Shown here: positions 27,057 to 49,566 of the stretch, one piece after another | Numbering within the stretch: the first letter of the stretch is position 1 | Layout: each line of letters opens with the position of its first letter | Origin: Burkholderiales bacterium | Lineage (GTDB): Bacteria; Pseudomonadota; Gammaproteobacteria; Burkholderiales; Burkholderiaceae_C | Direction of reading: 5' to 3' | Length of the DNA stretch: 64,000 nucleotides | NCBI GenBank assembly: GCA_028868305.1 | Contig: JAGWUS010000008.1 | Span: forward strand, 21,412-85,411 | Position numbers and translations under genes: made by a program | Notes under the pieces: generated by a model | Databases searched by the model: none | Seen by the model: only the letters and a program-made list of their open reading frames with translations | What the model was told of the DNA's origin: nothing

Positions 27057-27073
27057 GCTACATTTTTTATAGC
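27057..27073. repeat. Dispersed repeat GCTAY-N7-RTAGC, copy 1
   Basis: 17-bp core GCTACATTTTTTATAGC, ending three bases before the stop codon of the thiamine-diphosphate enzyme on the minus strand. The following AATCAGCGGGCTAAGGCC resembles the distal part of copies 2 and 5 (GCGGGC, GGCTAGAGGCC). Confidence 0.65.
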
Positions 27074-27075
27074 AA

Positions 27076-28845
27076 TCAGCGGGCTAAGGCCGTCCGGGTA
27101 ATGGCCGATAGCGTGCCGCGGGTGCTGATGAGTTCGGGCTCCAGCACCACTTCAATCAGCGTGCCTTCGGGTCGCGCCAACGCGGCCAGCAGTTCCGTCT
27201 CAAACGCATCGCTGCGCTGGATACGCACCCCCACATAGCCATAAGCCTTGGCCAGCGCCACAAAGTCGGGGTTCTTTAGCTTGGTACCCGCCACATGCTG
27301 CGGGTACTCGCGCTCCTGGTGCATGCGGATGGTGCCGTACATGCCGTTGTTGAGCAGCAGGATGATGGTCTTGGCGCCATGCTGCACGGCCGTGGCCAGC
27401 TCCTGCCCGTTCATCAAAAAGTCGCCATCACCTGCAATGGTGAATGCGGTACGGCCCGTCGTGATAGCCGCGGCAATCGCTGCAGGCACGCCATAGCCCA
27501 TCGCCCCGTTGGTCGGCGCGAGCTGGGTCTTGTGCCCGCTTGCCAGGCCCGCATAGCGGTAGAAGCGGTGCAGCCAGCTGGCAAAGTTGCCCGCGCCATT
27601 GGTCAGCACCGCATCGGCGGGCAAATGCTTTTGCAGTGTGGCAATCACCTTCGGCATATTCACCAGGCCCGCGGGCGTGTCGGCAGGCAAGTCCTGGATG
27701 ACAGATGGCTGCAGATTGGCCAGGTAGTCGGCATGGCAGCCTTGCGTCCAGGACTCCCAGAGCACACTCACTGGCGCGGTCAGCACCTCCAGTGAGCGGG
27801 CTGCGGCACGCATACTGGCATGGATGGCCAGATCGGCCTGGTACACCCGGTTCAGCTCTTCCGCACTGGCATGGATATGCACCAGCGTCTGCGCGGCTTT
27901 GGGCGCCTGCAGCAGCGTGTAGCCGCCCGTGGTCATCTCGCCCAGCCGTGGCCCGATGGCGAGGATCAGGTCGCTCTCCTTGATGCGTTTGGCCAGCAGC
28001 GGATTGATGCCAATGCCTACGTCGCCCGCATACTGCGGGTGGTGGTTGTCAAAGGTGTCCTGAAAGCGGAATGCGTTGCCCACCGGCAGGTGCCAGTTTT
28101 CGGCAAAACGCTGCAGCGCCTGCGCCGCCTGGGGCGTCCAGCCGCCCCCGCCAGCGATGACAAAGGGACGCTCCGCTTTTAATAGCAGCTCACGCAAGCG
28201 GCGCAGGGACCCGGGGTCGCTCCAGGCCTCCACCGGCTCCACGCGCAGCAAAGGTTGTGGCGGTTGGCCTGTGACCTTATCCACCACCAGAGTTTCCGTG
28301 AGCATGTCCTCCGGTAACACCAGCACCACCGGGCCAGGCCGGCCATTCATCGCGGTGGCAAAGGCGCGGGCGATGTATTCGGGAATGCGGGCCACTTCGT
28401 CAATGCGCTCCACACGCTTGGCCATGCCCAGGGTACTCGGGCCAAACATCACACGGTAGTCCATCTCCTGAAAGGCCTCGCGGTCGCGCTGATCGCTGGC
28501 GACATCGCCGACGAACAACACCATGGGTGTGGAGTCCTGAAATGCGGTGTGTACACCAATCGACGCATTGGTTGCGCCCGGGCCACGGGTCACAAAACAC
28601 ACGCCGGGGCGGCCGGTCAGCTTACCGTGCGCCTCGGCCATGAAGGCGGCACCGCCCTCCTGGCGGTTGATCACAAACTGGATCTGCTCACGGTACCGGT
28701 GGAAGCCGTCCAGTACCGCCAGATAGCTTTCGCCGGGCACGCCAAATGCATGGGTTACGCCCTGCTCGACAAGACATTGCACCAGCAGGTGACCGGCCAG
28801 GGTGGGGGCTAAGGTGGAAGAAGTGGTGTTATGCATGCACACCAT
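27076..28845 (-). CDS. Thiamine-diphosphate-dependent enzyme, acetolactate synthase-like
   Basis: A 589-residue three-domain ThDP enzyme. The N-terminal PYR domain holds the catalytic glutamate in VINRQEGGAAFMAEA. The central domain is of TPP_enzyme_M type. The C-terminal PP domain has the ThDP/Mg motif AGDGDFLMNGQELATAV ending in LLNN. It resembles acetolactate synthase large subunits, but no small subunit gene is near. It lies 21 bp after phhA, probably in one transcript with hpd and phhA, which suggests action on a 2-oxo acid linked to aromatic amino acids, for example a phenylpyruvate-type decarboxylase (inference). Starts at 28845 and 28836 are both ATG and neither has a clear ribosome binding site. 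A dispersed repeat touches its 3' end. Confidence 0.82.
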   Translation of the reverse strand: MVCMHNTTSSTLAPTLAGHLLVQCLVEQGVTHAFGVPGESYLAVLDGFHRYREQIQFVINRQEGGAAFMAEAHGKLTGRPGVCFVTRGPGATNASIGVHTAFQDSTPMVLFVGDVASDQRDREAFQEMDYRVMFGPSTLGMAKRVERIDEVARIPEYIARAFATAMNGRPGPVVLVLPEDMLTETLVVDKVTGQPPQPLLRVEPVEAWSDPGSLRRLRELLLKAERPFVIAGGGGWTPQAAQALQRFAENWHLPVGNAFRFQDTFDNHHPQYAGDVGIGINPLLAKRIKESDLILAIGPRLGEMTTGGYTLLQAPKAAQTLVHIHASAEELNRVYQADLAIHASMRAAARSLEVLTAPVSVLWESWTQGCHADYLANLQPSVIQDLPADTPAGLVNMPKVIATLQKHLPADAVLTNGAGNFASWLHRFYRYAGLASGHKTQLAPTNGAMGYGVPAAIAAAITTGRTAFTIAGDGDFLMNGQELATAVQHGAKTIILLLNNGMYGTIRMHQEREYPQHVAGTKLKNPDFVALAKAYGYVGVRIQRSDAFETELLAALARPEGTLIEVVLEPELISTRGTLSAITRTALAR

Positions 28846-28866
28846 TGTGCCGACTAAATCCGGTGG

Positions 28867-29721
28867 CTAAATCGGGTGATGAATGCCCGTGCCTGCGTGC
28901 AGCACATGGTCTCGCGCCAGCACCTGCCCCGGCTCGAAGGTGGGGCCGCTGTCCAGCGCCGCGTAGTAGGGCTCAAAGTCAATGTGTGCCAGCTCCAGCA
29001 GGTCGTCCAGACTGTCCAACACAAAGTAACTTTCCTGAAAATCGTCAATGCGGTAGCGGGTGCCCATCACGCGTTCCAGGTCAAACGCAATGCGATTGGG
29101 CGATGCGCTCTGCACCGAAAAACTGCTTTCGGAAAATGACGAGGCAATGCCGGCGCCGTAGATGCGCGTGCCACCACCCTCGCGCACCAGCCCAAACTCC
29201 ACCGTGTACCAGTACACCCGCGCCAGCTCGGCCAGCTTGCCCAGCTTTTGTGCGCGTAAACCACCCTGCCCGTAGGCCTGGATGAAGTCCGCCATCACCG
29301 GATGCATCAGCATCGGCACATGGCCAAACACATCGTGGAACACATCGGGCTCTTCGAGGTAGTCCAGTTCGTGGGCGCCGCGGATAAAGTTGCCCGCTGG
29401 AAAGCGCCGGTTCGCCAGGTGCTCAAAGAACACGTCGTCGGGTACCAGGCCCGGCACCGCGACCACCTGCCAGCCCGTCGCCTTCATCAGAGTCTTGGAC
29501 AGCGCCTCAAAGTCAGGAATGCGGTCTGCTGCCATGGGCAGCCTGCGCATACCCTCGATGAATGCGTCACAGGCCAGGCCGGGCAACAGCCGGGTCTGCC
29601 GTTCAAACAGCGTTTTCCACACCGCATGCTGGTCCGGCGTGTACGCTGCCCAGCCCTGCTCCACCGTCCAGTCGGGCCGCTCAGGGGCCTGGGTCGCGCC
29701 AGCCGCCAAACCGTGCTTCAT
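28867..29721 (-). CDS. phhA: Phenylalanine 4-monooxygenase
   Basis: Non-heme iron, pterin-dependent enzyme that hydroxylates phenylalanine to tyrosine. The 284-residue length fits bacterial PhhA. The two iron histidines are in EPDVFHDVFGHVPML and the glutamate ligand in YWYTVEFGLV. Substrate-site segments GNFIRGAHELDYLEEPD and RIYGAGIASSF are present. It lies 14 bp after hpd and before the ThDP enzyme on the same strand. The usual partner phhB (pterin carbinolamine dehydratase) is not in the window. Confidence 0.95.
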   Translation of the reverse strand: MKHGLAAGATQAPERPDWTVEQGWAAYTPDQHAVWKTLFERQTRLLPGLACDAFIEGMRRLPMAADRIPDFEALSKTLMKATGWQVVAVPGLVPDDVFFEHLANRRFPAGNFIRGAHELDYLEEPDVFHDVFGHVPMLMHPVMADFIQAYGQGGLRAQKLGKLAELARVYWYTVEFGLVREGGGTRIYGAGIASSFSESSFSVQSASPNRIAFDLERVMGTRYRIDDFQESYFVLDSLDDLLELAHIDFEPYYAALDSGPTFEPGQVLARDHVLHAGTGIHHPI

Positions 29722-29735
29722 GCTGCGTCCCTGGC

Positions 29736-30812
29736 TCAGGCAGTTTCAATGACGCCACGGCGCAGTTGATCGCGTTCCATCGATTCAAACAGCGCCTTGA
29801 AGTTGCCCTCACCAAAACCCTCATCGGCCTTGCGCTGGATGAATTCAAAGAACACCGGGCCCAGCAGGGTCTCCGAGAAAATCTGCAGCAGCAGCCGCTT
29901 CTCACCATTGGCCGTGGAGCCATCGAGCAGAATGCCGCGCGCCTGCAGTTCGGGCGTGGGTTCGCCGTGGCCGGGCATGCGTTCTTGCAGCATTTCGTAG
30001 TACACGTCGTTGGGCGCAGTCATGAGCGGAATACCCGCCATCTGCAGCGCGTCCACGCTGGCCAGCAAGTCGTCGGTCAGCAGCGCGATGTGCTGGATGC
30101 CTTCGCCATTGAACTGCATCAGGAACTCTTCAATCTGCCCGCCGGTCTTGCCCGACTCTTCGTTGAGCGGAATGCGGATCAGGCCATCGGGTGCCGTCAT
30201 GGCGCGGCTGGTCAGACCGGTGTATTCGCCCTTGATGTCGAAGTAGCGGATCTCGCGGAAGTTGAAGATGCGCTCGTAAAACGCACCCCAGAACGCCATG
30301 CGCCCCTTGTACACGTTGTGCGTCAGGTGGTCGATCATGCGAAAACCATGGCCCTTGGGGTGGCGCTCCACACCGGGCAGGAATTCGAAGTCGATGTCGT
30401 AAATGCTCTTGCCGTCCTCAAAGCGGTCAATCAGGTACAGCGGCGCACCGCCAATACCGCGGATGGCCGGCAGGCGCAGCTCCATCGGGCCGGTGGGAAT
30501 CTCGATGGGCTGGGCGCCCTGCTCCAGTGCGCGGGCGTAGGCCTTGTGCGAATCCTTCACGCGAAACGCCATGCTGCAGGCCGACGCGCCGTGCTCGGCG
30601 GCAAAGTAGGCCGCGTTGCTTTTGGGCTCGCGGTTGACGATGAAGTTGATGTCGCCCTGGCGGTACAGGTCCACATCCTTGGAGCGGTGGCGTGCCACCT
30701 TGGTAAAACCCATCTTCTCGAACAGAGGCTCCAGCACGCCGGGCACAGGCGATGCAAATTCCACAAACTCAAAGCCCATCAGGCCCATGGGGTTCTCGAA
30801 AAGATCAGCCAT
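29736..30812 (-). CDS. hpd: 4-hydroxyphenylpyruvate dioxygenase
   Basis: Converts 4-hydroxyphenylpyruvate to homogentisate in tyrosine catabolism. The 358-residue protein has two vicinal-oxygen-chelate domains. Iron ligands are the histidines in MIDHLTHNV and [11 protein letters not shown] and the glutamate in [11 protein letters not shown]. The ATG at 30812 has GAGGAG upstream. It is the first gene of hpd-phhA-ThDP enzyme and is divergent from an Lrp-type regulator. Homogentisate dioxygenase is not in the window. Confidence 0.96.
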
Positions 30813-30865
30813 TGCAATGCTCCTCAGCGGTGTGTTTTTGAATGCTTGATTGTGGTCAACACTGC

Positions 30866-30885
30866 GTGCAATGTGTGTGCAATGT
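30866..30885. promoter_or_regulatory. Direct repeat GTGCAATGT between hpd and the Lrp-type gene
   Basis: Two exact copies of GTGCAATGT (30866-30874 and 30877-30885), 11 bp apart, one helical turn, in the divergent promoter region. This is a candidate site for the adjacent Lrp/AsnC regulator. Confidence 0.5.
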
Positions 30886-30921
30886 TTGACCTATCTATGC
30901 AACATGACGCAAAATTTGTGC

Positions 30922-31425
30922 ATGAAATTAGATAAATCAGACGATTCAACGCTTGATACCTTCGATATCAGCCTTCTTTCCGCACTCCAACGCGATGCCT
31001 ATGCCACCCACCAGCAACTGGGCGAAGCCGTGCACCTCTCTGCCTCTCAGGTTAGTCGTCGGGTGGCGCGCTTGCAAACGGCCGGCATCATCCGCCGCTA
31101 CGTGGCCCTGATCGACCCTGCGGCCATTGGCCTGGGCGTGCGCGCCATCACCTATGTCACCCTGACGCGCCACAGTGGCGACGAGGGTCTGGCGTTTGAA
31201 CGCGAGATTGGCGGCTTTCCGGAGGTGCTGGAGTGCTATTCGGTGGCCGGTGAGTCCGACTACATCCTGCAGATCGTGGCTGCGGATCTGCATGCGCTAT
31301 CAGAAAACGTACTGCGCCGCCTCACCCGCATTCAGGGCGTGGGCAACATCCGCTCCAACATCGTGCTCAACTGCATCAAGTCCAGCACCGAGATGCCGCT
31401 GGGACAGCTTGGCAAATCAAATTAG
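30922..31425 (+). CDS. Lrp/AsnC-family transcriptional regulator
   Basis: A 167-residue protein. Residues about 12-60 form the winged helix (LDTFDISLLSALQRDAYATHQQ, VHLSASQVSRRVARLQTAGII) and residues about 70-155 the RAM/AsnC ligand-binding domain (GFPEVLECYSVAGESDYILQIV, NIRSNIVLNCIK). The start is taken at ATG 30922 (MKLDKSDD); an ATG at 30904 is an alternative and neither has a strong ribosome binding site. Being divergent from hpd, it probably controls phenylalanine/tyrosine catabolism with an aromatic amino acid as effector, as is known for other Lrp-type regulators of hpd and phhA genes. Confidence 0.92.
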   Translation: MKLDKSDDSTLDTFDISLLSALQRDAYATHQQLGEAVHLSASQVSRRVARLQTAGIIRRYVALIDPAAIGLGVRAITYVTLTRHSGDEGLAFEREIGGFPEVLECYSVAGESDYILQIVAADLHALSENVLRRLTRIQGVGNIRSNIVLNCIKSSTEMPLGQLGKSN

Positions 31426-31432
31426 CGCCGAA

Positions 31433-32644
31433 CTAACGCTTCGTCCGCTGCCCCACACCTAGCGCCGCTACGACACTGAGCAGCAGCACCAATGCAGCGC
31501 CCAGCAGCGTAGCACCATACCAGCCGCGGTCCATGAACACGCCGAACACCAGCGGTGAAATGGCAAAACCGGTATCCAGACCCGAATACACCAGCCCATA
31601 GACGCGCCCCGTGGCCCCCTTGGGCGTGGCCTTCTTGATCATCATGTCGCGCGACGGGCCGCCTATGCCCACTGCAAAACCGGTAATGGCCAGTACCACC
31701 ATGGTCGCCGTAGCGCCGAGCACGCCGGTACCGCACAGCGCCAGTAAGGCTGCACCTGCCGCCATCGCCATGGCCACCACACGGTCGCTATTGGCCACGC
31801 GTGCGGCAATGAAGCCGCCAATGAACATGCCCACTGCACCGCACAGCATGTAAGCCGTCAGTGTCAACGTGGCGGCCTCAAAACTGATGCCATGCATGGC
31901 CTTGAGAATGGACACCGAGAAGCTCTGCACCACCGCCAGCGTCATGGTCGACAGCAGAAAGAAACCAAAACACCACCACACCACCGGCAGCTTCATGAAC
32001 GCCAGGTCGTGTTCCTTGTGTGCATGTGGCTCGTGCACCACCACCTGGGTACTGAGCTTGTCGCGCTGCAGCACCAGCAGCGCCAGGATCGCCGTGTACA
32101 GCACCGCAGCGGCCAGATACGCCGTGCGCCAGCCAAAGCCCGCGCTGATGGACGCAAAAAACACCGGTGCCACCGCCCAGCCCAGGTTACCGGTCAGCCC
32201 ATGCGCGCTGAAAGCGTAACCCAGGCGCGGCCCGGAGACGCGCTGGTTCAGGATGGTGAAGTCCACCGGATGAAAAGTCGCATTGCCCAGGCCCGCCAAA
32301 GCGGCTACCAGCATCAACCCGGTGTAGCCGGTCACGGTGGAAGCCGCAACGCAGGCCACCGCAAAAATGGTCAGCGCCACAAACAGCAGTGGCCGAGCAC
32401 CCATACGGTCCACCACAAAACCTGCACTGGCCTGCCCCACACCAGACACCACAAAAAAGATGCTCATCAACAACCCAAGCTCCGAATAGCTCAGGCCGAA
32501 CTCTTTCATGAACACCGGGAACATCAACGGCAGCAACAAGTGACCGAAGTGCGAACTGGCATGGGCCAGGCCCACCAGACCGATGATGGTGGCGTCCTGC
32601 TTCAGGGGTACTTCGCTGGGGATGTGTAGAACTGCAGTAGTCAT
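31433..32644 (-). CDS. Major facilitator superfamily transporter
   Basis: A 403-residue protein with twelve predicted hydrophobic segments. The first cytoplasmic loop carries the MFS-type motif GFVVDRMGARPLLF, and the middle loop (residues about 195-215, HEPHAHKEHD) is charged and histidine-rich. The general look (GLAHASSHFGHLLLPLMFPVF) is like fosmidomycin-resistance (Fsr)-like or other efflux carriers. The substrate is unknown. It is convergent with the Lrp-type gene after a 7-bp gap and ends a minus-strand run after the thioesterase gene. Confidence 0.85.
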   Translation of the reverse strand: MTTAVLHIPSEVPLKQDATIIGLVGLAHASSHFGHLLLPLMFPVFMKEFGLSYSELGLLMSIFFVVSGVGQASAGFVVDRMGARPLLFVALTIFAVACVAASTVTGYTGLMLVAALAGLGNATFHPVDFTILNQRVSGPRLGYAFSAHGLTGNLGWAVAPVFFASISAGFGWRTAYLAAAVLYTAILALLVLQRDKLSTQVVVHEPHAHKEHDLAFMKLPVVWWCFGFFLLSTMTLAVVQSFSVSILKAMHGISFEAATLTLTAYMLCGAVGMFIGGFIAARVANSDRVVAMAMAAGAALLALCGTGVLGATATMVVLAITGFAVGIGGPSRDMMIKKATPKGATGRVYGLVYSGLDTGFAISPLVFGVFMDRGWYGATLLGAALVLLLSVVAALGVGQRTKR

Positions 32645-32665
32645 GGATCGATGGTAACCCGATGC

Positions 32666-33187
32666 TTAAAAACCAGCAGAGAGGGCCTGCTTCAACCCCA
32701 GCGGGTCAGTCGCCTTGCCGTCGCCAATGATCTGGCCCATTTTGAAAATACCGCTCACGCGCAGCACTGGCTGGCCATCGGCCGTCACCACGCCCTGGCC
32801 AAACAGCATATTGCGCGTGGTTTTCAGAATATCGGCCTCGCCCTGCACCCAGGCGCCCAGCGCCGACGCACCCATGTAGTCCATCTGCAGGCTGATGGTC
32901 GGCAGGAAACGGCGCTCCATGTCGTGCTGGTACATGGCGGCGCAGGGAATCAGCATGTCTGCAAAGGTGGCCATCATGCCGCCGTGTGCGATCTTCAGCG
33001 GGTTGGTGTGGTGGTCCTGCACACGAAACCCCAGCAACAGGCGTTGGCCGGTCCATTTGCCATACAGCGGGCCGTTGTGGGCGATGAACGCGCCGCCCAC
33101 CTGCACCGGGCGAAAGCCTTCGGGTACCGCAATGCCGCTGGCCGGCGAGATGTCGTCAAAGTCTGTTGGAGGGGGTGAAGTAGTCAT
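32666..33187 (-). CDS. PaaI-type hotdog-fold acyl-CoA thioesterase
   Basis: A 173-residue protein with a single hotdog domain. The segment AHGGMMATFADMLIPCA matches the HGGxxxxxxD catalytic pattern of PaaI/YbgC-like thioesterases. The first 25 residues are unstructured and proline-rich. It is encoded 3 bp after the ccdB-like gene on the same strand and 21 bp before the MFS gene. Its acyl-CoA substrate cannot be inferred. Confidence 0.8.
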   Translation of the reverse strand: MTTSPPPTDFDDISPASGIAVPEGFRPVQVGGAFIAHNGPLYGKWTGQRLLLGFRVQDHHTNPLKIAHGGMMATFADMLIPCAAMYQHDMERRFLPTISLQMDYMGASALGAWVQGEADILKTTRNMLFGQGVVTADGQPVLRVSGIFKMGQIIGDGKATDPLGLKQALSAGF

Positions 33188-33190
33188 GCT

Positions 33191-33520
33191 CTAGCCCCAC
33201 GACCGGGTGAGTAATTCATCAAGTGCGTCTGCAACGGCTTGCCCATGATCAGCCAGGGATGCGGTCTGCTCCCCCAGTTGATCCAGTGCCACTGACACCA
33301 TGTCCAGCGGATGCAGCACCACGGTGATGCCATTGACTTCGAACTGAGGGTTCATCCGTGAACCAGGCGCAGAAGCCGACGCCGGCAAGGCACTACGACG
33401 CACCAAGGGCACCACCACCCGCCTGCGATATCGGTCAAAAAGCGCCGACTGCACCACCACCACAAAAGGGATGGATTCACGCAACGGACCCTTGTTCAAG
33501 TACACATCAAACTGCGCCAT
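33191..33520 (-). CDS. ccdB: CcdB-family toxin
   Basis: A 109-residue protein beginning MAQFDVYLNK, with IPFVVVVQSALFD, RRVVVPLVRRSAL and NGITVVLHPLDMVSV, the CcdB/Kid-like core. CcdB poisons DNA gyrase. Its ATG overlaps the stop of the antitoxin gene (TAATG), the usual arrangement of a coupled toxin-antitoxin pair. Length is near that of F-plasmid CcdB (101). No plasmid or phage genes are nearby, so this is a chromosomal copy. Confidence 0.85.
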   Translation of the reverse strand: MAQFDVYLNKGPLRESIPFVVVVQSALFDRYRRRVVVPLVRRSALPASASAPGSRMNPQFEVNGITVVLHPLDMVSVALDQLGEQTASLADHGQAVADALDELLTRSWG

Positions 33521-33777
33521 TACAAAGTGCTGTGCTCGTCTGCAAATGAACCCACCGAAGCGTGCACCGCATTCCAGTCAGCCGCACACGCGTCCGCCAG
33601 TCGTCTGCGGGCTTGCAAACCTTGTTGCTGGTCTTCCACATAGGAAACCAGCAACTGCTCGATCGTGGCCGACAGGTTATTGGTAAAGGTCTTGGCCTGC
33701 GCAACCAAACCCTCATTCAAAGTGAGATTGACCGGGCGCTTACGCGGACCAGCGGGCGGTATGACTGCAATAGACAT
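33520..33777 (-). CDS. ccdA: CcdA-family antitoxin
   Basis: An 85-residue protein starting at ATG 33777 (MSIAVIPP) with GAGAGG upstream; the track start includes ten extra residues across the operator. The N-terminal half, RKRPVNLTLNEGLVAQAKTFTNN, is a ribbon-helix-helix DNA-binding domain, and the C-terminal half, ARRRLADACAADWNAVHASVGSFADEHSTL, matches the CcdA toxin-binding tail. First gene of the pair; a double octamer palindrome lies 23 bases upstream. Confidence 0.85.
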   Translation of the reverse strand: MSIAVIPPAGPRKRPVNLTLNEGLVAQAKTFTNNLSATIEQLLVSYVEDQQQGLQARRRLADACAADWNAVHASVGSFADEHSTL

Positions 33778-33799
33778 GTAAAACCTCTCAAAAATACCA

Positions 33800-33818
33800 A
33801 TGCGCATATTATGCGCAT
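33800..33818. promoter_or_regulatory. Tandem ATGCGCAT palindromes upstream of ccdA
   Basis: Two perfect octamer palindromes ATGCGCAT separated by ATT, 23 bases upstream of the ccdA start. Ribbon-helix-helix antitoxins commonly bind such tandem sites to repress their own operon, so this is a strong autoregulation candidate. Confidence 0.6.
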
Positions 33819-34284: not shown

Positions 34285-34301
34285 AAAGTCAGCCAAGATT
34301 T

Positions 34302-34350
34302 GCTACTAAATCCATAGCTGGCTGTGCATATCCCACGCGGGCCGGAGGCC
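34302..34350 (+). repeat. Dispersed repeat GCTAY-N7-RTAGC, copy 2, long form
   Basis: Core GCTACTAAATCCATAGC at 34302-34318, followed by TGTGCATATCCCACGCGGGC and GGAGGCC. The distal part resembles copies 4 and 5. It sits at the 3' end of the nucleotidyltransferase remnant and its last base is part of that gene's stop codon. Confidence 0.65.
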
Positions 34351-34813
34351 TATTTCATTGAATTCTTCAGCTTGGTCAGCACGCTTTTGTCGATCAGGTC
34401 TTTTTCGCGATAGTCGGTCTTGGTCTTGAGCAGACCGTCAATGTCCAGCGTGGCAATGGGCACGCCTTCCACATCAATGTGGCGTACATGGGGGTGCAGC
34501 GACTCGAACGTCTGGCCATTGGCCGCAAAAAGCAGGTCCACCAGCAGGTCGTCCGCAACACGAATGTTGTCGGGTGCGGCAGGGTCTACTTCAAACCAGG
34601 CAGGGTCAAGCTCTGCGCTGCTCGGCAAGAAATTCAAAGCGCGGATGACTTTGCGGCCATTGTCGATAGACGACGGCAGGAGGATGTCGATGTCTTCGGT
34701 GCTGCGCACAAAGCCATTAAGCCGTACCGCCCGTGCCCGCCGACCAGAACGTACTGAACGCCCTCTTCCGCAAACCGGCGAAGCAGGTGCAAAAGCTGGT
34801 CAGGTTGCGCCAC
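34350..34813 (-). pseudogene. Nucleotidyltransferase (AbiEii-like) broken by a frameshift
   Basis: Two frames join to make one protein. The upstream frame, from a GTG near 34813, reads LLHLLRRFAEEGVQYVLVGGH. The downstream frame continues with AVRLNGFVRSTEDIDILLP and runs to the TAG at 34350. Together they restore the motif GGHxxRxxGxxRxTxDID of nucleotidyltransferases of the AbiEii/MNT superfamily. The break lies at about 34729-34733, in a G-rich stretch, as two extra or one missing base. The ORF track only shows the second half (from a GTG at 34709). Either a real pseudogene or a sequencing error. A small ORF upstream overlaps the GTG. Confidence 0.72.
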
Positions 34814-41294: not shown

Positions 41295-42533
41295 TTATGC
41301 CAGCAACTCACTGAATGCCACAAACTGCACCCTGTCGCCAGGCGCAATGGTGCAGCCCGCAGGGTTGTCGACCATGCCATCGCCCCAGACAGTCGAGGTC
41401 AGTACGCCCGAACTTTGGTTGGGAAACAGGTCCAAACCACCTTGGGCATTGCGACGCACGCGCAGGAATTCACGGCGTTTATCGGCTCTGGCCCAAGTGA
41501 AATCTGCGCGGACAGCTATTGATTTCATAGCAACTTCGGTTACGCCCTGCATTTGCAGCAGAAATGGCCGCACAAGCACCAGGAAGGTGATGTAGCTCGA
41601 CACCGGGTTGCCAGGCAATCCCAGGAAATGCGCATTGCCAATGCGGCCGTGTGCAAACGGTTTGCCGGGCTTGATGGCGATCTGCCACAGGTCCAGCGAG
41701 CCCAGCGATTGCACGGCGGGCTTGATGTGGTCTTCTTCACCCACCGAAACACCGCCGCTGGTCAGAATCACATCGTGGCTCTGGGCAGCGCTGCGCAGGG
41801 CTTCCACCGTTGCGTCGCGCTGATCCGGCACGATGCCCATATCGGTGACATCACAACCCAGGCGACGTAACAGCGCGGCCAGAAAGAAACGGTTTGAGTT
41901 GTAGATGGCACCGGGTGGCATGTCCTGCGGCGCCTTCTGGCCGGGCATGACGAGTTCATCGCCCGTCGAAAACAGCGCCACGCGCGGACGGCGCTTCACG
42001 GCAAGTTCCGCCATGCCGACACTGGCAGCCAGACCCAGCGCCGCCGGATGCAGACGCTGGCCACACTGCAGCACCACACTGCCACGGGCCACATCTTCAC
42101 CGGCACGGCGAATCCACTGCCCCACAGCGGGCACAGCATTCACCCGCACCCCTCCCTCGCATTCGTTGACCACGTCGCAGTCTTCCTGCATGACCACGGC
42201 ATCAGCGCCCGACGGAATCGGGGCACCGGTAAAAATGCGCGCCGCGCTCAAAGGCTGCATGCGATGACCACTGGAGCCCGCAGCAATGCGCTGCGTGACC
42301 TGCAGCACCACACCGGACTCCTGCACATCGGCGCAGCGCACGGCATAGCCGTCCATGGAGCTGTTGTCCTGCGGCGGAACGTGCAGTTCGGACACCACGT
42401 CTGCGGCAAGCACACGGCCATCGGCGTCCAGCGTGGCGACCATTTCAACATCCTGCAGCGGTGCAACAGCACCCAGCAGTTGCGCTAGCGCGTCGTCAAG
42501 CGACATCAATGGGGGACGCGGTGCCGTGGCCAT
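41295..42533 (-). CDS. moeA: Molybdopterin molybdenumtransferase
   Basis: Inserts molybdate into adenylylated molybdopterin. The 412-residue protein shows PPQDNSSMDGYAVR, IFTGAPIPSGADAVVMQED, RPRVALFSTGDELV and the MoCF-binding segment VILTSGGVSVGEEDH followed by KPGKPFAHGRIG and LPGNPVSSYITF. ATG 42533 lies one base after the thrC stop (TGATATG); the track start is a TTG inside thrC. The core of a dispersed repeat lies in the coding sequence at 41515-41531 and encodes part of AMKSIA. Confidence 0.95.
   Translation of the reverse strand: MATAPRPPLMSLDDALAQLLGAVAPLQDVEMVATLDADGRVLAADVVSELHVPPQDNSSMDGYAVRCADVQESGVVLQVTQRIAAGSSGHRMQPLSAARIFTGAPIPSGADAVVMQEDCDVVNECEGGVRVNAVPAVGQWIRRAGEDVARGSVVLQCGQRLHPAALGLAASVGMAELAVKRRPRVALFSTGDELVMPGQKAPQDMPPGAIYNSNRFFLAALLRRLGCDVTDMGIVPDQRDATVEALRSAAQSHDVILTSGGVSVGEEDHIKPAVQSLGSLDLWQIAIKPGKPFAHGRIGNAHFLGLPGNPVSSYITFLVLVRPFLLQMQGVTEVAMKSIAVRADFTWARADKRREFLRVRRNAQGGLDLFPNQSSGVLTSTVWGDGMVDNPAGCTIAPGDRVQFVAFSELLA
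41515..41531. repeat. Dispersed repeat GCTAY-N7-RTAGC, copy 3, inside moeA
   Basis: Core GCTATTGATTTCATAGC inside the moeA reading frame, without a clear distal part. The frame remains open through it. Confidence 0.5.
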
Positions 42534-42534
42534 A

Positions 42535-43977
42535 TCAGTGTGCGCATTCCTGCGCAATCAGCGCCTTGATGGCGGCCACGTCGGCCTCCATGATGGTCAC
42601 GCGTTTCGGCAACGCCTCGATGCCTTCGAATTTGGCAGGCCGCTCCGGCTCGCGCCCCAGCGCTTCCACAATGGTGGCCGCAAATTTGATGGGCAAGGCG
42701 GTTTCCAGAACAATCATGGTCACGCCAGGAGACCGGTGCTCCAACCCCACCTTCAGGCCATCGGCCGTATGGGTGTCGATCATGATCTCGTGGCGCTTCC
42801 AGGTGTCACGAATGGTCTTCAAACGGTCGGCATGCGTGCTCTTGCCACTGACAAAGCCGTAACGGCTGGCCGCCTGCGCAAACGCGGGGTCGCTGCTCAG
42901 ATCAAAGCGCCCGTCCTTATTCAGGGCTTCACCAAACAGGGCCTTCACGCGATTGCCATCGCGGCCCAGCAGGTCGAACACAAAGCGCTCGAAGTTGCTG
43001 GCCTTGGAAATATCCATGGACGGGCTGGAGGTCTCGTGCGTATCGGTGGTACCGCGCACGCGGTACACGCCGGTGCGGAAGAACTCGTCGAGCACATCGT
43101 TTTCGTTGGTGGCCACCACCAGCTTGTCGATGGGCAGGCCCATCATGCGCGCCACATGGCCCGCGCAGACGTTGCCGAAGTTGCCGCTGGGCACGCTGAA
43201 GGACACTTTCTGCGCGTTGGACTCGGTGGCCTGGATGTAACCGGCGAAGTAATACACCACCTGCGCCATCAGACGCGCCCAGTTGATGGAATTCACGGTG
43301 CCGATCTTGTACTTGCGCTTGAACTCCAGATCGTTGGACACGGCCTTGACCATGTCCTGGCAATCATCGAACACGCCCTTGACCGCAATGTTGTAGATGT
43401 TGGCGTCCATCAGGCTGAACATCTGTGCCTGCTGGAACGGGCTCATGCGGCCATACGGGCTGGTCATGAAGACGCGCACACCCTTCTTGCCACGCATGGC
43501 GTACTCGGCCGCGCTGCCGGTATCGCCGCTGGTCGCCCCCAGAATGTTCAGCTCTTCGCCACGGCGCGCCAGTTCGTATTCGAACAGGTTGCCCAGCAGT
43601 TGCATGGCCATGTCCTTGAAGGCCAGCGTGGGGCCGTTGGACAGGGCTTCGATCCACAGGCCGTCTTCCACGTGGCGCAGCGGCACGATCTCGCCCGTGC
43701 CGTAGACCGCAGCGGTGTAGGTCTTTTCACACAGGGCGCGCAAATCGGCGGCGGGAATGTCGTCGATATAGAGCGACAGAATCTCGAAGGCCAGCGCTGC
43801 ATAGCCCTGCTGATGGTAGACATCGCGCCACCGCGTCAGTGTGGCATCGCTCACCTGCGGATAGAACTCGGGCATGTACAGCCCGCCGTCGGGCGCCAGG
43901 CCTTCGAGCAGGATTTCGCAAAAGCGCTTGCGGTCTGACGTATCGGTCAATGCAGCGCGGGTACTCAGGTACTTCAT
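42535..43977 (-). CDS. thrC: Threonine synthase
   Basis: PLP enzyme converting O-phosphohomoserine to threonine, 480 residues, the longer class found in Proteobacteria and yeast. The PLP lysine is in NGPTLAFKDMAMQLL, and the cofactor phosphate region is LGATSGDTGSAAEYA; MKYLSTRA at the start is standard. The start codon overlaps the hom stop by one base (TGATG), so hom and thrC are coupled. Confidence 0.96.
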   Translation of the reverse strand: MKYLSTRAALTDTSDRKRFCEILLEGLAPDGGLYMPEFYPQVSDATLTRWRDVYHQQGYAALAFEILSLYIDDIPAADLRALCEKTYTAAVYGTGEIVPLRHVEDGLWIEALSNGPTLAFKDMAMQLLGNLFEYELARRGEELNILGATSGDTGSAAEYAMRGKKGVRVFMTSPYGRMSPFQQAQMFSLMDANIYNIAVKGVFDDCQDMVKAVSNDLEFKRKYKIGTVNSINWARLMAQVVYYFAGYIQATESNAQKVSFSVPSGNFGNVCAGHVARMMGLPIDKLVVATNENDVLDEFFRTGVYRVRGTTDTHETSSPSMDISKASNFERFVFDLLGRDGNRVKALFGEALNKDGRFDLSSDPAFAQAASRYGFVSGKSTHADRLKTIRDTWKRHEIMIDTHTADGLKVGLEHRSPGVTMIVLETALPIKFAATIVEALGREPERPAKFEGIEALPKRVTIMEADVAAIKALIAQECAH

Positions 43978-45299
43978 CAGGCGAGTTCTTCCTTGCGGAT
44001 GCGGGTGATCGGCGCCAGCACGGTAGGCAATGCCTGCATCTGGGTAATGGCCGCGTTCATTTTGGCTTCCTGGCAGTCGTGGGTGAGGATGATGACGTCG
44101 GTCTGGGTAGAGCCTTCGCCACCCACTTCGTCGGCTTCGCGCTGCAGCACTGCGTCGATGCTGATGCCGTTTTCGGCAAGAATGCCAGTAACTTTGGCCA
44201 GCACGCCAGCCTGGTCGGCCACGCGCAGGCGCAGGTAGTAGCTGGTCACCACCTGGTCCATGGGCAACACTTTGAGGTCGCTCAATGCATCGGGTTGGAA
44301 CGCCAGGTGCGGCACGCGGTTTTGCGGGTCGGCGGTGTGCAGGCGGGCAATGTCCACCAGATCGGCAATGACCGCGCTGGCGGTGGGCTCCGAGCCCGCA
44401 CCTTTGCCGTAGTACAGCGTGGTGCCCACGGCGTCGCCTTGCACTACCACGGCGTTCATCGCACCTTCGACATTGGCGATCAGGCGTTTGGCCGGCACCA
44501 GGCTGGGGTGCACGCGCAACTCGATGCCTTCGGGGCGGCGCTTGGCAATGCCCAATAGCTTGATGCGGTAGCCCAGTTGCTCGGCGTACTTGATATCGGC
44601 AGCGCCCAGCTTGGTGATGCCCTCCACATAGGCCTTGTCAAACTGCACCGGAATGCCAAACGCAATAGCCGCCATGATGGTGGCCTTGTGGGCAGCGTCC
44701 ACACCTTCGATGTCAAAGGTGGGGTCGGCCTCGGCGTAACCCAGGCGCTGAGCTTCTTTAAGCACCACACCAAAGTCCAGCCCCTTGTCGCGCATTTCGG
44801 ACAGGATGAAGTTGGTGGTACCGTTAATGATGCCGGCGATCCACTGGATGCGGTTGGCCGTCAGGCCTTCGCGCAGCGCCTTGATGATGGGAATGCCACC
44901 GGCCACGGCGGCTTCAAACGCCACCATCACGCCTTTGGCGGATGCGGCCGCAAAAATCTCGGTGCCATGCACGGCCAGCAGCGCCTTGTTGGCGGTGACC
45001 ACGTGCTTGCCCGCGGCAATCGCCTCCATCACCAGGGTCTTGGCAATGCCGTAGCCACCGATCAACTCGATCACGATGTCGATGTCCGGGTTGGCAATGA
45101 CGGCGCGGGCGTCGTTGACCACCTTCACATCGGGGCCGACAGCGGCCTGTGCGCGGGCGGTATCGAGGTCGGCGACCATGGTGATTTCAATGCCGCGGCC
45201 AGCGCGGCGCTGAATCTCTTGCTGGTTGCGCTTGAGCACATTGAATGTGCCGGAACCCACTACGCCAATGCCCAACAGGCCCACTTGAATCGGTTTCAT
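43977..45299 (-). CDS. hom: Homoserine dehydrogenase
   Basis: NAD(P)H-dependent reduction of aspartate semialdehyde to homoserine, shared by threonine and methionine synthesis. The 440-residue protein has the Rossmann motif GLLGIGVVGSGTFNVL, catalytic-domain segments GIINGTTNFILSEM and GYAEADPTFDIEGVDAAHK, and a C-terminal ACT domain (YYLRLRVADQAGVLAKVTGIL) that usually mediates threonine feedback. There is no fused aspartate kinase. It precedes thrC with one base overlap and follows alaC after 79 bp. Confidence 0.96.
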   Translation of the reverse strand: MKPIQVGLLGIGVVGSGTFNVLKRNQQEIQRRAGRGIEITMVADLDTARAQAAVGPDVKVVNDARAVIANPDIDIVIELIGGYGIAKTLVMEAIAAGKHVVTANKALLAVHGTEIFAAASAKGVMVAFEAAVAGGIPIIKALREGLTANRIQWIAGIINGTTNFILSEMRDKGLDFGVVLKEAQRLGYAEADPTFDIEGVDAAHKATIMAAIAFGIPVQFDKAYVEGITKLGAADIKYAEQLGYRIKLLGIAKRRPEGIELRVHPSLVPAKRLIANVEGAMNAVVVQGDAVGTTLYYGKGAGSEPTASAVIADLVDIARLHTADPQNRVPHLAFQPDALSDLKVLPMDQVVTSYYLRLRVADQAGVLAKVTGILAENGISIDAVLQREADEVGGEGSTQTDVIILTHDCQEAKMNAAITQMQALPTVLAPITRIRKEELA

Positions 45300-45330
45300 A
45301 CAGTCTCTACAGTTTCAGGTTAAATCTGAG

Positions 45331-45375
45331 TGCAGCCCGCACGGGATATGCACAAGAAGCTATCAATTACATAGC
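45331..45375 (-). repeat. Dispersed repeat GCTAY-N7-RTAGC, copy 4, long form
   Basis: Core GCTATCAATTACATAGC at 45359-45375, three bases after the alaC stop codon. On the minus strand it continues with TGTGCATATCCCGTGCGGGC, which matches the distal part of copy 2 at all but two bases. Confidence 0.7.
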
Positions 45376-45378
45376 AAT

Positions 45379-46605
45379 TCAGTTGCTGTGCCGTTTGCGG
45401 TAGTGCTCTAGGAACTTGGCTACACGACCAATGGCCTCGCGCAGGTCATCTTCATGGGGCAGGAACACAATGCGGAAATGGTCTGGCTCGGGCCAGTTGA
45501 AGCCTGTGCCCTGTACCAGCATCACACGGGTTTCCTGCAACAGTTCCAGGAAGAATTGCTGGTCGTCTTCAATCGGATACATGGCCGGGTCCAGCCGCGG
45601 AAACATGTACAGCGCCGCAGAGGGCTTGACGCAGGTGACACCAGGAATGGCGGTAATAAGCTCGTAGGCCAGGTCGCGCTGGCGGCGCAGGCGACCGCCC
45701 TCTCCTACCAGTTCATTGATGCTCTGGTAGCCACCCAAGGCGGTCTGGATCGCATACTGTCCCTGCACGTTCGAGCACAGGCGCATGTTCGACAGCATGT
45801 TGAGGCCTTCGATGTAATCCTTGGCCGGGCGCTTGTCCCCCGACACGATCATCCAGCCCGCGCGGTAGCCGCAAGAGCGGTAGCTCTTGGACAACGAGTT
45901 GAAGGTCAGTGTCAGCACATCGTCGCTCAGGGAGGCAATGGCAGTGTGTTTGACACCGTCGTACAGCACCTTGTCGTAGACCTCGTCGGCAAAAATCACC
46001 AGCCCATGCTCACGCGCAAGCTCCACAATGGCCAGCAGCAGTTCGTCCGAGTACAGGGCGCCCGTCGGGTTGTTGGGGTTGATGACCACAATGCCCTTGG
46101 TGCGTGGCGTGATCTTGCTGCGGATGTCATGCAGGTCTGGCATCCAGCCATTCGCTTCGTCACACATGTAGTGCACTGGCGTGCCCCCCGATAGACTGAC
46201 CGCCGCGGTCCACAACGGATAGTCTGGTGCTGGCAACAGCAACTCATCACCATCGTCAAGCAGGCCGTTGGTGGCCATCACGATCAGTTCGCTGGCGCCA
46301 TTGCCGAGATAGATGTCATCCAGTCCCACGTTTTTAATGCCCTGGCGCTGCGTCTCGTGCATCACGGCCTTACGCGCCGCAAAAATGCCCTTGCTGTCCG
46401 AGTAACCCGCCGAATTGGGCAAGTTGCGGATCATGTCCTGCTGGATTTCCTCAGGCGCATCAAAGCCGAACACCGCCAGATTGCCGATGTTGAGTTTGAT
46501 GATCTTCTGACCCTCTTCCTCCATCTGCCGCGCTCGGTCCATGATGGGCCCACGGATGTCGTAACAGACGTTGGCAAGCTTGGCAGATTTCTGAATGGTT
46601 CTCAA
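45379..46605 (-). CDS. alaC: Alanine-synthesising aminotransferase, AlaA/AlaC type
   Basis: Class I aminotransferase of 408 residues making alanine from pyruvate and glutamate. Signatures: KLANVCYDIRGPIMD, KLNIGNLAVFGFDAP, NPNNPTGALYSDE, FADEVYDKVLYDG and the PLP lysine in FNSLSKSYRSCGYRAGWM. These are nearer to AlaA (YfbQ) than to branched AlaC, but gene naming in this group is mixed. The start is taken as TTG 46605 (RTIQKSAKLANV) because GGAGGG lies just upstream and homology begins there; the spacing of three to four bases is short. First gene of the run to hom, thrC and moeA. Confidence 0.9.
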   Translation of the reverse strand: MRTIQKSAKLANVCYDIRGPIMDRARQMEEEGQKIIKLNIGNLAVFGFDAPEEIQQDMIRNLPNSAGYSDSKGIFAARKAVMHETQRQGIKNVGLDDIYLGNGASELIVMATNGLLDDGDELLLPAPDYPLWTAAVSLSGGTPVHYMCDEANGWMPDLHDIRSKITPRTKGIVVINPNNPTGALYSDELLLAIVELAREHGLVIFADEVYDKVLYDGVKHTAIASLSDDVLTLTFNSLSKSYRSCGYRAGWMIVSGDKRPAKDYIEGLNMLSNMRLCSNVQGQYAIQTALGGYQSINELVGEGGRLRRQRDLAYELITAIPGVTCVKPSAALYMFPRLDPAMYPIEDDQQFFLELLQETRVMLVQGTGFNWPEPDHFRIVFLPHEDDLREAIGRVAKFLEHYRKRHSN

Positions 46606-46640
46606 AATCCCTCCGGAATGTAGCGTTACGGGGTGAAACC

Positions 46641-46646
46641 TATAAT
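46641..46646 (+). promoter_or_regulatory. Possible -10 box (TATAAT) before the Mth938-type gene
   Basis: A perfect TATAAT lies 79 bases before the start of the Mth938-type gene in the divergent region with alaC. No good -35 box is seen at 17 bases. Confidence 0.3.
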
Positions 46647-46724
46647 TTGACCACAGTTCGGCACCGTAGTGGTGCAGTGCAACACGCAATTTCCTTCAGT
46701 GTCGTCCAACCCCACTCACCCAAC

Positions 46725-47090
46725 ATGAAATTCCAGCCCGATGCCGTCACCGGCCCTTCCATCAGCGGTTACGGCCCGGGATGGGTTGCGGTCAATGGTG
46801 AACGGTTCTCGCAACACCTGATAGTCAGCAGCAAGGGCACCAAGTCGCTCTGGGATTGCGGTGGTTTTGAGAGCCTGCAGGCAGCGCATTTCGAACAGCT
46901 GATTGCCCTGGAGCCCGAGCTGGTCATTTTCGGCAGCGGCGAGCGTATCCGCTTCCCGCAGCCACAGTGGCTCAGCGCCCTGTACGCAAGGCGCATTGGA
47001 CTGGAAACCATGGATACGCAGGCCGCCTGCCGGACCTTCAACTTTCTTGCTGGCGAAGGCCGCAAGGTGGTTGCTGCCCTTTTGTTGTGA
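46725..47090 (+). CDS. Mth938/DUF498-domain protein
   Basis: A 121-residue protein from ATG 46725 (MKFQPDAVTG). The single domain, with SISGYGPGWVAVNGERF, ELVIFGSGERIRFP and GLETMDTQAACRTFNFLAGEGRKVVAALL, is that of the Mth938-like family, which includes NDUFAF3, a factor for respiratory complex I assembly. The bacterial role is not established. It is divergent from alaC. Confidence 0.85.
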   Translation: MKFQPDAVTGPSISGYGPGWVAVNGERFSQHLIVSSKGTKSLWDCGGFESLQAAHFEQLIALEPELVIFGSGERIRFPQPQWLSALYARRIGLETMDTQAACRTFNFLAGEGRKVVAALLL

Positions 47091-47192
47091 CCGGGTTAGC
47101 CCCTAAAGGGCAACCGTAGCTTTTCAGAGTAAAATCGTAGGTTGCGGTTTTCACCATGAAGACCCATTCTGCATGCGAGACTGAAACACCTT

Positions 47193-47669
47193 ATGGCGAT
47201 CGTTGTCAACAAACCCCTCCCCGAATTTGAAGCCAATGCCACCGGTGGTATCAAGGTATCCAACACCACCCATGTTGGTAAAACCATGGTGCTGTATTTC
47301 TACCCCAAAGACAACACCCCGGGTTGTACCACCGAAGCCATGCAGTTTCGGGACAAATACAAGGATTTCGTGAAAGCCGGCGCCACCGTATTCGGCGTTT
47401 CGCGCGACAACATGAAATCCCACGATGAGTTCAAGATCAAGTTGGAACTGCCTTTTGAGTTGATTGCCGACACGGAAGAAAAAATGTGCCATATGTTTGG
47501 CGTGGTCAAGAACAAGATCATGTACGGTAAGAAGGTCAAAGGCATTGAACGCAGCACCTTCCTGATCGGGGCCGATGGCCTGCTCAAGGAAGAGTGGCGC
47601 GGTCTGAAGGTGCCTGGTCATGTGGACGAAGTCCTCAAAGCCGTCAAAGCACTGAAAAAAGCCTCCTGA
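47193..47669 (+). CDS. bcp: Thioredoxin-dependent peroxiredoxin, Bcp/PrxQ type
   Basis: A 158-residue peroxiredoxin that reduces hydroperoxides. The peroxidatic cysteine is Cys45 in YPKDNTPGCTTEAMQFRD. E. coli Bcp has its resolving cysteine five residues later; here that position is Met50, and the only other cysteine is Cys99 (EEKMCHMFG). Either Cys99 resolves, or the enzyme works as a 1-Cys type. The gene is single, with a strong terminator about 110 bases downstream. Confidence 0.93.
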   Translation: MAIVVNKPLPEFEANATGGIKVSNTTHVGKTMVLYFYPKDNTPGCTTEAMQFRDKYKDFVKAGATVFGVSRDNMKSHDEFKIKLELPFELIADTEEKMCHMFGVVKNKIMYGKKVKGIERSTFLIGADGLLKEEWRGLKVPGHVDEVLKAVKALKKAS

Positions 47670-47777
47670 CAGCTTGACTATTTCGGGCCTGTTGTTTTGG
47701 CACACGCTGGTACAGCGGTGCCTTGCGACTCATGCATAATGGGTTTCATGCCGTTGATTCCTGCGACCGCGTTTCTC

Positions 47778-47810
47778 AAAAAAGCCGCCTTGGCTCAAGG
47801 CGGCTTTTTT
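47778..47810. terminator. Strong symmetric terminator between bcp and phoH
   Basis: Hairpin AAAAAAGCCGCCTTG-GCTC-(reverse arm) ending in TTTTTT, perfectly paired over fifteen bases. It works in principle in both directions and separates bcp from the phoH-type gene. Confidence 0.9.
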
Positions 47811-47859
47811 GCTTTTACGGCATCCATTTTTCAATCCAACCAAGTGCGAGCCACACTCC

Positions 47860-49524
47860 ATGCCATTGCCTCCCGCCCCCACCAAACGTGCTGACAGGGT
47901 TTCACCCAAGGCTTTCAATGCGCCTGCCCGCAGCACACCAGCAACTCAGAGAAAACCCCAACGCGCAGAAGGGGCACAGGCGCGGGCTGTCGTTTCAACT
48001 CCAGCCGATAAGTCGTCCTCCAGAGTTACCCCACGATCCGTTGCACCCGTGCTGCTGACCGAAGGCAGAATTCCTGTTGCGGCACCCGCTCTGACCGCAT
48101 CAGCACCCGCACGTACCAAACGACGTGCCCGTACTGGCCCCACCAAACTCTTCGTGCTCGACACCAATGTCCTGTTGCACGACCCGATGTGCCTTTTCCG
48201 CTTTGAAGAGCACGACATTTTCCTACCCATGATCGTCCTTGAGGAACTCGACGGTCACAAGAAGGGAATGACCGAAGTCGCACGCAATGCGCGCCAGACC
48301 AGCCGTACGCTTGACGCCCTTGCTGGCGCACCGGGTGCCGATATCACGGCGGGCTTCCAGCTCAACAGCACAGGTAACCGCGATGCGGGTGGCAAGCTGC
48401 TGTTCCAGACCCAGCCCCTCGACTACCACCTGCCAACTAGCCTGCCGCAAGGCAAGGCTGACAACCAGATTCTGGGGGTCGTGGAAGCCCTGCGCACCAA
48501 ATACGCTCCCCGTGAAGTGGTGCTGGTGTCCAAAGACATCAACATGCGCGTCAAGGCACGGGCGCTGGGCCTGGCGACCGACGACTACCAGAACGACAAG
48601 ACGCTGGAAGATGGTGATTTGCTGTACTCCGGCGCACTGGCGTTGCCCACCGACTTTTGGGCAACCCACGGCCAGACGGTCGAAAGCTGGCAACAGGGCC
48701 CCCACACTTTCTACAAGGTGGATGGACCGGTCGTACCGAGCATGCTGATCAACCAGTTTGTGTATTTCGAGTCACCCGGGGAACCCAGCCTGTACGCCCG
48801 CGTGACGGAAATTCGCGGTACTACAGCGGTTCTCAAGACACTCAAGGACTTTACGCACCTCAAGAACGCCGTCTGGGGTGTAACGGCCCGCAACCGGGAG
48901 CAGAACTTCGCGATGAATCTGCTGACCGACCCGGAAGTGGACTTCGTCACGCTCACCGGCACCGCCGGTACCGGCAAGACCCTGATGGCCTTGGCCGCTG
49001 GCCTGACCCAGGTGCTGGACGACCGCCGCTACACCGAGATCATCGTCACCCGCGCCACCGTGAGCGTAGGTGAAGACATCGGCTTCCTGCCCGGCACCGA
49101 AGAAGAAAAAATGGGGCCCTGGATGGGCGCACTGGACGACAACCTCGAAGTGCTGGGCAAGACCGACACCAGCGCCGGCGAATGGGGTCGTGCCGCCACC
49201 AACGAACTGATCCGTAGCCGCATCAAGATCAAGAGCATGAACTTCATGCGTGGGCGCACCTTCCTGAACAAGTACGTCATCATTGACGAAGCCCAGAATC
49301 TGACCCCCAAACAGATGAAAACACTGATCACGCGTGCGGGCCCCGGCACCAAGATCATCTGCATGGGTAATCTGGCGCAGATTGATACGCCCTACCTGAC
49401 CGAAGGCTCCTCCGGGCTGACCTATGCGGTAGACCGCTTCAAGGGCTGGCCACATGGCGGGCACATTACCCTGGCCCGCGGCGAGCGTTCACGCTTGGCT
49501 GACTTCGCCAGCGAAGTGCTATAA
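47860..49524 (+). CDS. PhoH family protein with N-terminal PIN domain (PhoH2-like)
   Basis: A 554-residue protein. Residues 1-95 are basic, proline/alanine-rich and disordered. Residues about 96-230 form a PIN RNase domain (LFVLDTNVLLHDP, with the acidic residue of IVLEELDGHKKG). The last 250 residues are the PhoH ATPase with Walker A TGTAGTGKTLMALAAG and Walker B YVIIDEAQNLTPKQMKTL. PIN-PhoH proteins are known to couple RNA unwinding with cleavage. ATG 47860 (MPLPPAPTKR) is chosen since homology does not extend upstream. It is convergent with dnaB. Its TAA stop lies inside the core of a dispersed repeat. Confidence 0.92.
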   Translation: MPLPPAPTKRADRVSPKAFNAPARSTPATQRKPQRAEGAQARAVVSTPADKSSSRVTPRSVAPVLLTEGRIPVAAPALTASAPARTKRRARTGPTKLFVLDTNVLLHDPMCLFRFEEHDIFLPMIVLEELDGHKKGMTEVARNARQTSRTLDALAGAPGADITAGFQLNSTGNRDAGGKLLFQTQPLDYHLPTSLPQGKADNQILGVVEALRTKYAPREVVLVSKDINMRVKARALGLATDDYQNDKTLEDGDLLYSGALALPTDFWATHGQTVESWQQGPHTFYKVDGPVVPSMLINQFVYFESPGEPSLYARVTEIRGTTAVLKTLKDFTHLKNAVWGVTARNREQNFAMNLLTDPEVDFVTLTGTAGTGKTLMALAAGLTQVLDDRRYTEIIVTRATVSVGEDIGFLPGTEEEKMGPWMGALDDNLEVLGKTDTSAGEWGRAATNELIRSRIKIKSMNFMRGRTFLNKYVIIDEAQNLTPKQMKTLITRAGPGTKIICMGNLAQIDTPYLTEGSSGLTYAVDRFKGWPHGGHITLARGERSRLADFASEVL

Positions 49525-49566
49525 ATTAAGTAGCTGCTTGTTCAATATTGACGGGGGCTAGAGGCC
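49518..49566 (+). repeat. Dispersed repeat GCTAY-N7-RTAGC, copy 5, long form
   Basis: Core GCTATAAATTAAGTAGC at 49518-49534; its TAA is the phoH stop codon. It continues with TGCTTG and ends in GGGGCTAGAGGCC, similar to the distal part of copy 2 (GCGGGCCGGAGGCC). Confidence 0.65.

Follow-up and report, generated by a model that had tools for sequence, protein, structure and literature searches.

The window analyzed here is a stretch of 64,000 nucleotides from a Burkholderiales bacterium (GCA_028868305.1, contig JAGWUS010000008.1, positions 21,412 to 85,411), which carries seven clear copies of a dispersed 63-bp element, two of which lie entirely within called genes (Table 1). An initial annotation of this DNA had noted a 17-bp core, GCTAY-N7-RTAGC, at 27057, 34302, 45359 and 49518, and all four cores were found at these coordinates. 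Together with two further matches at 41515 and 58592, the window holds six strict cores, compared to 0.09 expected in shuffles. The contacts with stop codons described for these cores were recovered as well: TGA precedes the two cores on the minus strand, two bases before 27073 and three before 45375, the core at 49518 includes the TAA of phoH (49522-49524), and the distal part of the copy at 34302 contributes the TAG of a convergent open reading frame (ORF). The longer shared tail, which had been ascribed to three copies, does exist, but all seven copies carry it. Search of the window against Rfam gave no matches at gathering thresholds.

Table 1. Copies of the 63-bp element in the window, with profile E-value, core and gene context (TPP, thiamine pyrophosphate)
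Feature	Position	Strand	Profile E	Core and tail	Context
Element	17272..17334	+	1.3e-10	core deviates from the strict pattern	inside ORF 16898-17797; not in the earlier list
Element	27011..27073	-	2.5e-8	strict core 27057-27073, tail towards 27011	GGDEF-protein gene / convergent TPP-enzyme gene; core two bases past the TPP-enzyme TGA
Weak candidate element	28170..28232	+	0.007	GCTCC-N7-ATAGC, AGCTCACGCA	inside TPP-enzyme gene; excluded from the clear copies
Element	34302..34364	+	9.9e-14	strict core	tail holds TAG (34350-34352) of convergent ORF 34350-34709
Element	41469..41531	-	3e-11	strict core 41515	inside moeA, sense strand, at the MoCF/MoeA_C domain junction (Pfam)
Element	45313..45375	-	1.7e-11	strict core	aminotransferase gene (stop three bases off) / homoserine dehydrogenase gene
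Element	49518..49580	+	6.4e-13	strict core	phoH-family TAA inside core (49522-49524); convergent dnaB-like gene next
Element	58546..58608	-	2.3e-7	strict core 58592	antisense to the outermost 5' end of the gene for a TonB-dependent receptor, or just upstream; start codon of this gene uncertain

A 63-bp element with a palindromic core

The 17-bp palindrome GCTAY-N7-RTAGC is just the first quarter, at the 5' side, of an oriented element of ~63 bp with fixed spacing, GCTAY-N7-RTAGC-TnnYTGYGCA-N6-ACGnGGGCT-nn-AGSCC-nnATTT. Alignment of 43 copies on the core revealed the successive blocks AAAT, GCTAY-N7-RTAGC, T, YTGYGCA (positions 21-27), ACGnGGGCT (34-42) and AGSCC (45-49), followed towards the 3' end by ATTT (51-54), a Y at position 57 and an A-rich block (60-63). 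The motif comprises 35 informative positions and holds ~50 bits in total. The tail alone, which had no part in selecting the first set of copies, accounts for ~28 bits as summed from the 43-copy table.

A genome-wide search, as the initial annotation had proposed, demonstrated that the core is over-represented in the source genome (3.48 Mb in 94 contigs), with 298 strict cores compared to 29 for a reversed-pattern control. Profile search of a 450-kb sample of this genome yielded 55-58 copies, 55 of them at E < 1e-3, and none in the reversed sequence with this threshold. The extrapolated total is approximately 420-450 copies per genome; the sample, on which the context figures below are based, comes partly from the core-holding stretches of the first search, and its density is approximate. 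In three species, the density varies from 122 to 194 per Mb, which corresponds to one element per 5-8 kb. In the species represented by G218, 90 copies are forward and 83 reverse, with none in the control, and the two orientations are mixed along the complete chromosome, which speaks against a replication polarity like that of Chi or KOPS. Some stretches are spaced more evenly than random; the overall difference is not significant (mean coefficient of variation (CV) 0.76 vs 0.88, P 0.07).

Genomic location, conservation and base pairing

Genes were called by a home-made script, and individual starts are uncertain. Among the 55 copies of the sample, 25 are wholly genic (10 of these antisense), compared to 46.5 expected by random placement. 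The other 30 copies cluster at gene ends, 21 of them lying within 30 bp of a stop codon (70% vs 37% for random non-genic positions, binomial p ~4e-4). Convergent gaps hold nine copies, compared to 1.1 expected from 55 random placements, and divergent gaps hold three. The predicted enrichment near stop codons thus applies to the non-genic copies, and the phrase “next to gene ends” in the initial annotation describes a part of the element family, 45% of the copies being inside genes. The genic copies also keep to those frames in which the motif brings no stop codon, with sense copies in frame 0 in 13 of 15 cases and antisense copies in frame 1 in 8 of 10. One genic copy (L013:1501-1550) lies in frame within a mutL-like coding sequence, where AINSIADCAILSRASGL comes after GFRGEALA.

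The element is also unevenly distributed between the replicons of strain OS-4 (G251). The chromosome sample of this strain holds 143 copies per Mb, compared to only two copies in the 240 kb examined of its plasmid pOS401 (AP026971.1, 305 kb, with IS1071), where 34 would be expected from the chromosome of the same strain; this comparison covers one plasmid. In addition, 28 viral contigs (L233-L260) carry the strict long form, which may lie in host flanks of prophages.

Orthologous sites were compared in two other species, G218 and G282, and 21 of 27 such places retain the element. Identity is 79% at informative positions compared to 59% at linker positions (p ~1e-10), where the informative positions were defined on the other species and the comparisons are not fully independent; the same contrast holds both within and outside genes. 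The element also exists in dialects. Position 24 is T in 73% of the copies of the source genome and C in 96-97% of those in G218 and G282, and position 39 is G in 93% of the former and C in 81-83% of the latter. In orthologous pairs, T is replaced by C in 14 of the 15 pairs that have T in the source genome (position 24), and G by C in 11 of 20 (position 39), without a single change in the reverse direction. Decay of unused copies would strike all positions equally, whereas positions 24 and 39 shift genome-wide; therefore, the divergence is not simple decay.

The varying spacer had been read in the initial annotation as a sign of a structured element, which is not supported, as the arms do not covary. 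Over 210 copies from several genomes, the arm pair 5-13 is T-G in 51 copies, compared to 52.5 expected if the two positions were independent, and the mismatch C-A occurs in 36; many of these copies had been picked for having Y at position 5 as well as R at position 13. A candidate stem in the tail displays no covariation either, and the strongest mutual information is that between neighboring bases. As neither core nor tail covaries, a hairpin of RNA or single-stranded DNA was ruled out, and the absence of covariation points to a double-stranded site that would be read by a protein.

Terminator-like sites are found at 7 of the 37 gene ends that bear the element and at 35 of the 356 that do not, and most of those at element-bearing ends rely on a weak stem of five or six bases. 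The arrangement of an intrinsic terminator, a G+C stem plus a T run in sense orientation at gene ends, is not a general property of the element. In some copies, the tail of the element supplies one arm of a strong hairpin that resembles a terminator, as seen in the orthologs of the 49518 copy in G218 and G282 and at L034:11683-11735. The hairpin at L034:11683 is identical between species, and the hairpin-bearing orthologs of the 49518 copy are off-dialect at position 39, as if the terminator held this base.

Origin of the copies and possible explanations

The copies were compared with each other over 19 low-information positions. The 55 copies of the source genome are no more alike at these positions than column shuffles, with a mean likeness of 5.46 in both and a maximum of 12 compared to 12.5. 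Recent duplication of copies would have produced pairs of near-identical sequence, and no copy-from-copy signal is left. At moeA, the length of the gene is constant among 14 orthologs in the genus, some of which match the element well with a different spacer, whereas others have no match. Similarly, most orthologs of a leuS-like gene (L022:16049) are equal in length, apart from two that lack 6 and 12 bp, respectively, and at L022:10364 the length is equal or nearly equal whether or not an ortholog matches the element well. Other loci differ in length. At the genic copy L032:6322, exactly 54 bp are missing from the orthologs of five genomes, and no target duplication was recognized at this length difference; at L022:9503, the element-free orthologs are 42 bp shorter; and some of the gaps orthologous to that at 45313..45375 measure just 12-24 bp and have no element. 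Both in-place change and sequence gain thus appear to occur. It has been argued that the DNA uptake sequences (DUS) of Neisseria are acquired largely via recombination (PMC2397512).

A survey of the order demonstrated that the element is patchy, as some genera of Comamonadaceae hold 50-700 copies and others next to none. In this family, 75 of 251 genomes reach 40 or more strict cores, with a maximum of 708, and most of the others have fewer than 20; in 146 genomes sampled elsewhere in the order, the maximum is 22. Named carriers include Rhodoferax, Polaromonas, Curvibacter, Acidovorax, Simplicispira, Ottowia and Giesbergeria. Two genera mix rich and poor species, with 368 vs 6 copies in one (G072/G178) and 301 vs 18 in the other (G122/G215).

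Altogether, the data support that the element is selected as a DNA sequence, that substitution in place can create the motif, that its sites persist between species and that it changes in a concerted manner genome-wide. Judging from these patterns, selection or drive very probably maintains it as a motif read by a protein, and a mobile or RNA element is correspondingly improbable. Among the readings offered by the initial annotation, which were a mobile miniature element, a transcript 3'-end structure and a protein-binding site, the last is favored by the fixed spacing, the lack of arm covariation, the base-specific conservation and the restriction of mutual information to neighboring bases.

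An old and diverged non-autonomous family resembling repetitive extragenic palindromic (REP) sequences or miniature inverted-repeat transposable elements (MITE), mobilized in trans by a transposase or recombinase, would explain the hundreds of copies, their patchiness across genera and the shorter element-free orthologs and gaps, among them the 54-bp difference. Moreover, Y1 transposase genes occur more often in rich than in poor genomes (69 of 75 vs 119 of 176, p 2.5e-5, not corrected for phylogeny). However, several near-complete rich genomes have no Y1 transposase (G021, G233 and G142, with 420, 315 and 309 copies, respectively), and the element nearest to the Y1_Tnp gene of the source genome (G000:C2:65009) is ~4 kb away, with none within 4 kb. 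This reading is further weakened by the absence of kinship between copies, the in-place origin at moeA and leuS, the persistence of sites, the nearly empty pOS401 and the lack of hairpin covariation, and we regard it as distinctly unlikely. A transcript 3'-end element, which might be a terminator or a structure that stabilizes or processes mRNA, is more improbable still. It would agree with the excess of non-genic copies close to stop codons and in convergent gaps, with the resemblance of the tail to GGGCTnnAGCCC-ATTT and with the few copies whose stem is also part of a real terminator, but it leaves the genic and antisense copies unexplained; besides, neither putative stem covaries, and terminator-like sites are not systematic and have mostly weak stems. 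Sites for a chromosome-organizing or segregation protein, such as one that associates with the nucleoid or loads condensin, which selection on chromosome structure would maintain, form a more serious rival, albeit a rather unlikely one. The palindrome plus tail would suit a dimeric binder with accessory contacts, and the sites are chromosome-limited, number 122-194 per Mb in three species and are spaced more evenly than random in some stretches, though not overall. Nevertheless, ~50 bits over ~60 bp far exceed the ~14 bits needed to specify ~400 sites, which would be unusual for a regulator, and a concerted shift of dialect at hundreds of sites would be hard to achieve by selection at each site. 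In addition, no replication-strand polarity or confinement was seen in G218, and the system is absent from many related genera and even from species of a genus in which others are rich.

The origin in place, the permissive sites, the dialects and the plasmid depletion match uptake or self-recognition sequences, and therefore we put first the reading that the element is an uptake-type signal by which related DNA is recognized, although only as a tentative choice that may well prove wrong. In such a scheme, a protein or protein complex would read the ~63-bp double-stranded signature; this reader might belong to a DNA-uptake or transformation pathway, which is the least certain step. DNA bearing the signature would be preferentially taken up and recombined, so that better matches would spread over the chromosome by molecular drive and come to lie where they are tolerated, for example at gene ends or in variable parts of proteins.

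Several points weigh against the uptake reading. ComEC occurs in almost all genomes of the family and does not separate rich from poor ones (72 of 75 vs 168 of 176), nor do GspH-type minor pilins, which occur in both alike and were therefore ruled out as receptor candidates that discriminate between them. An apparent loss of comEC in the source genome was not used, as the neighboring match breaks off right where contig C89 ends (L302) and an assembly gap is likelier. No report of natural competence in the element-bearing genera was found in the open-access literature. Moreover, the palindrome of 17 bp is suggestive of a protein that binds DNA as a dimer, in contrast to the known receptor, which is a minor pilin, and a chromosome-organizing protein would likewise predict chromosome-limited sites. 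The element is also far longer than DUS (10-12 bp) or the ~9-bp cores of the uptake signal sequences (USS), and more than 10 times rarer than these, for which thousands of copies are reported; the short word of 9-12 bp at about one per kb, typical of DUS and USS, is not found here.

Relation to known repeats and uptake sequences

A motif survey of 2017 listed the unexplained pattern ATAGCT(N)22CAAAAG in Polaromonas naphthalenivorans CJ2, with 125 copies, of which 101 are intergenic and 18 genic, and with 34 located between convergent genes (PMC5217627, Table 7). This pattern almost certainly corresponds to the present element, as its spacing fits positions 13-18 and 41-46 and the species belongs to the same bacterial family. 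New relative to that survey are the palindromic arm, the full length, the dialects, the in-place evolution and the plasmid depletion. No description of the full extent, dialects or evolution of the element was found in the open-access literature, and a literature search for the tail GGGCTAGAGGCC returned just one unrelated paper. In Rhodoferax, Polaromonas, Acidovorax and their relatives, the conserved sites number several hundred per genome and appear to have had no function assigned so far.

Among dispersed repeats, the REP sequences with their associated transposases (RAYT) resemble the element in having hundreds of palindromic copies, many of them by gene ends. They differ in that the element lacks the GT(A/G)G head and a compensating stem; REP transposase genes have been described as invariably flanked by REPs (PMC2817692), whereas the transposase here is unflanked and missing from several rich genomes. 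The BRE repeat of Betaproteobacteria (PMC3110155) is likewise dispersed and shares some genera with the element. Compared to BRE, which is ~90 bp long, GC-rich (69%) and often tandem, the element has an AT-rich core and is not tandem. A second dispersed repeat of ~90 bp was observed at L032:4535-4627, with dozens of copies of 80-90% identity in related genomes and a size and spread like those of BRE.

The closest parallels are the DUS of Neisseriaceae and the USS of Pasteurellaceae, for which permissive locations and an association with gene ends have been published (PMC2397512, PMC3630211). DUS differ from the element in being near-invariant words of 10-12 bp, present in thousands of copies and bound by the receptor ComP, compared to ~63 bp of more variable sequence with a palindromic core. 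USS differ in sequence and bacterial class, and the element is much longer and has fewer copies. As length and copy density do not fit, we would not assign the element to either family. Nevertheless, it shares with DUS the hundreds to thousands of dispersed copies concentrated mainly in the core chromosome, the permissive genic and intergenic sites, the association with gene ends or terminators and the dialects that follow lineages (PMC3630211, PMC2397512). With USS it shares a short core with flanking AT-rich blocks, tolerant genic positions and variants specific to species groups. Over-representation in both orientations, lineage dialects and, as far as one plasmid tells, concentration in the core chromosome are thus found here as in DUS and USS. 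If the sites were architectural instead, they would be among the longest and most numerous chromosome-organizing sites known. Uptake or self-recognition sequences have been reported from just two bacterial families (PMC3630211). Compared to these, the 60-bp palindrome-plus-tail of Comamonadaceae, with its lineage dialects and a putative receptor, could conceivably represent a third, independently evolved genome-wide system of DNA self-recognition for natural transformation, a proposal we hold even more tentatively than the uptake reading itself. If true, an uptake-type motif of different length and architecture in this large family, whose members live in freshwater and soil, would allow drive versus selection to be tested independently, and would point to a new DNA-reading protein.

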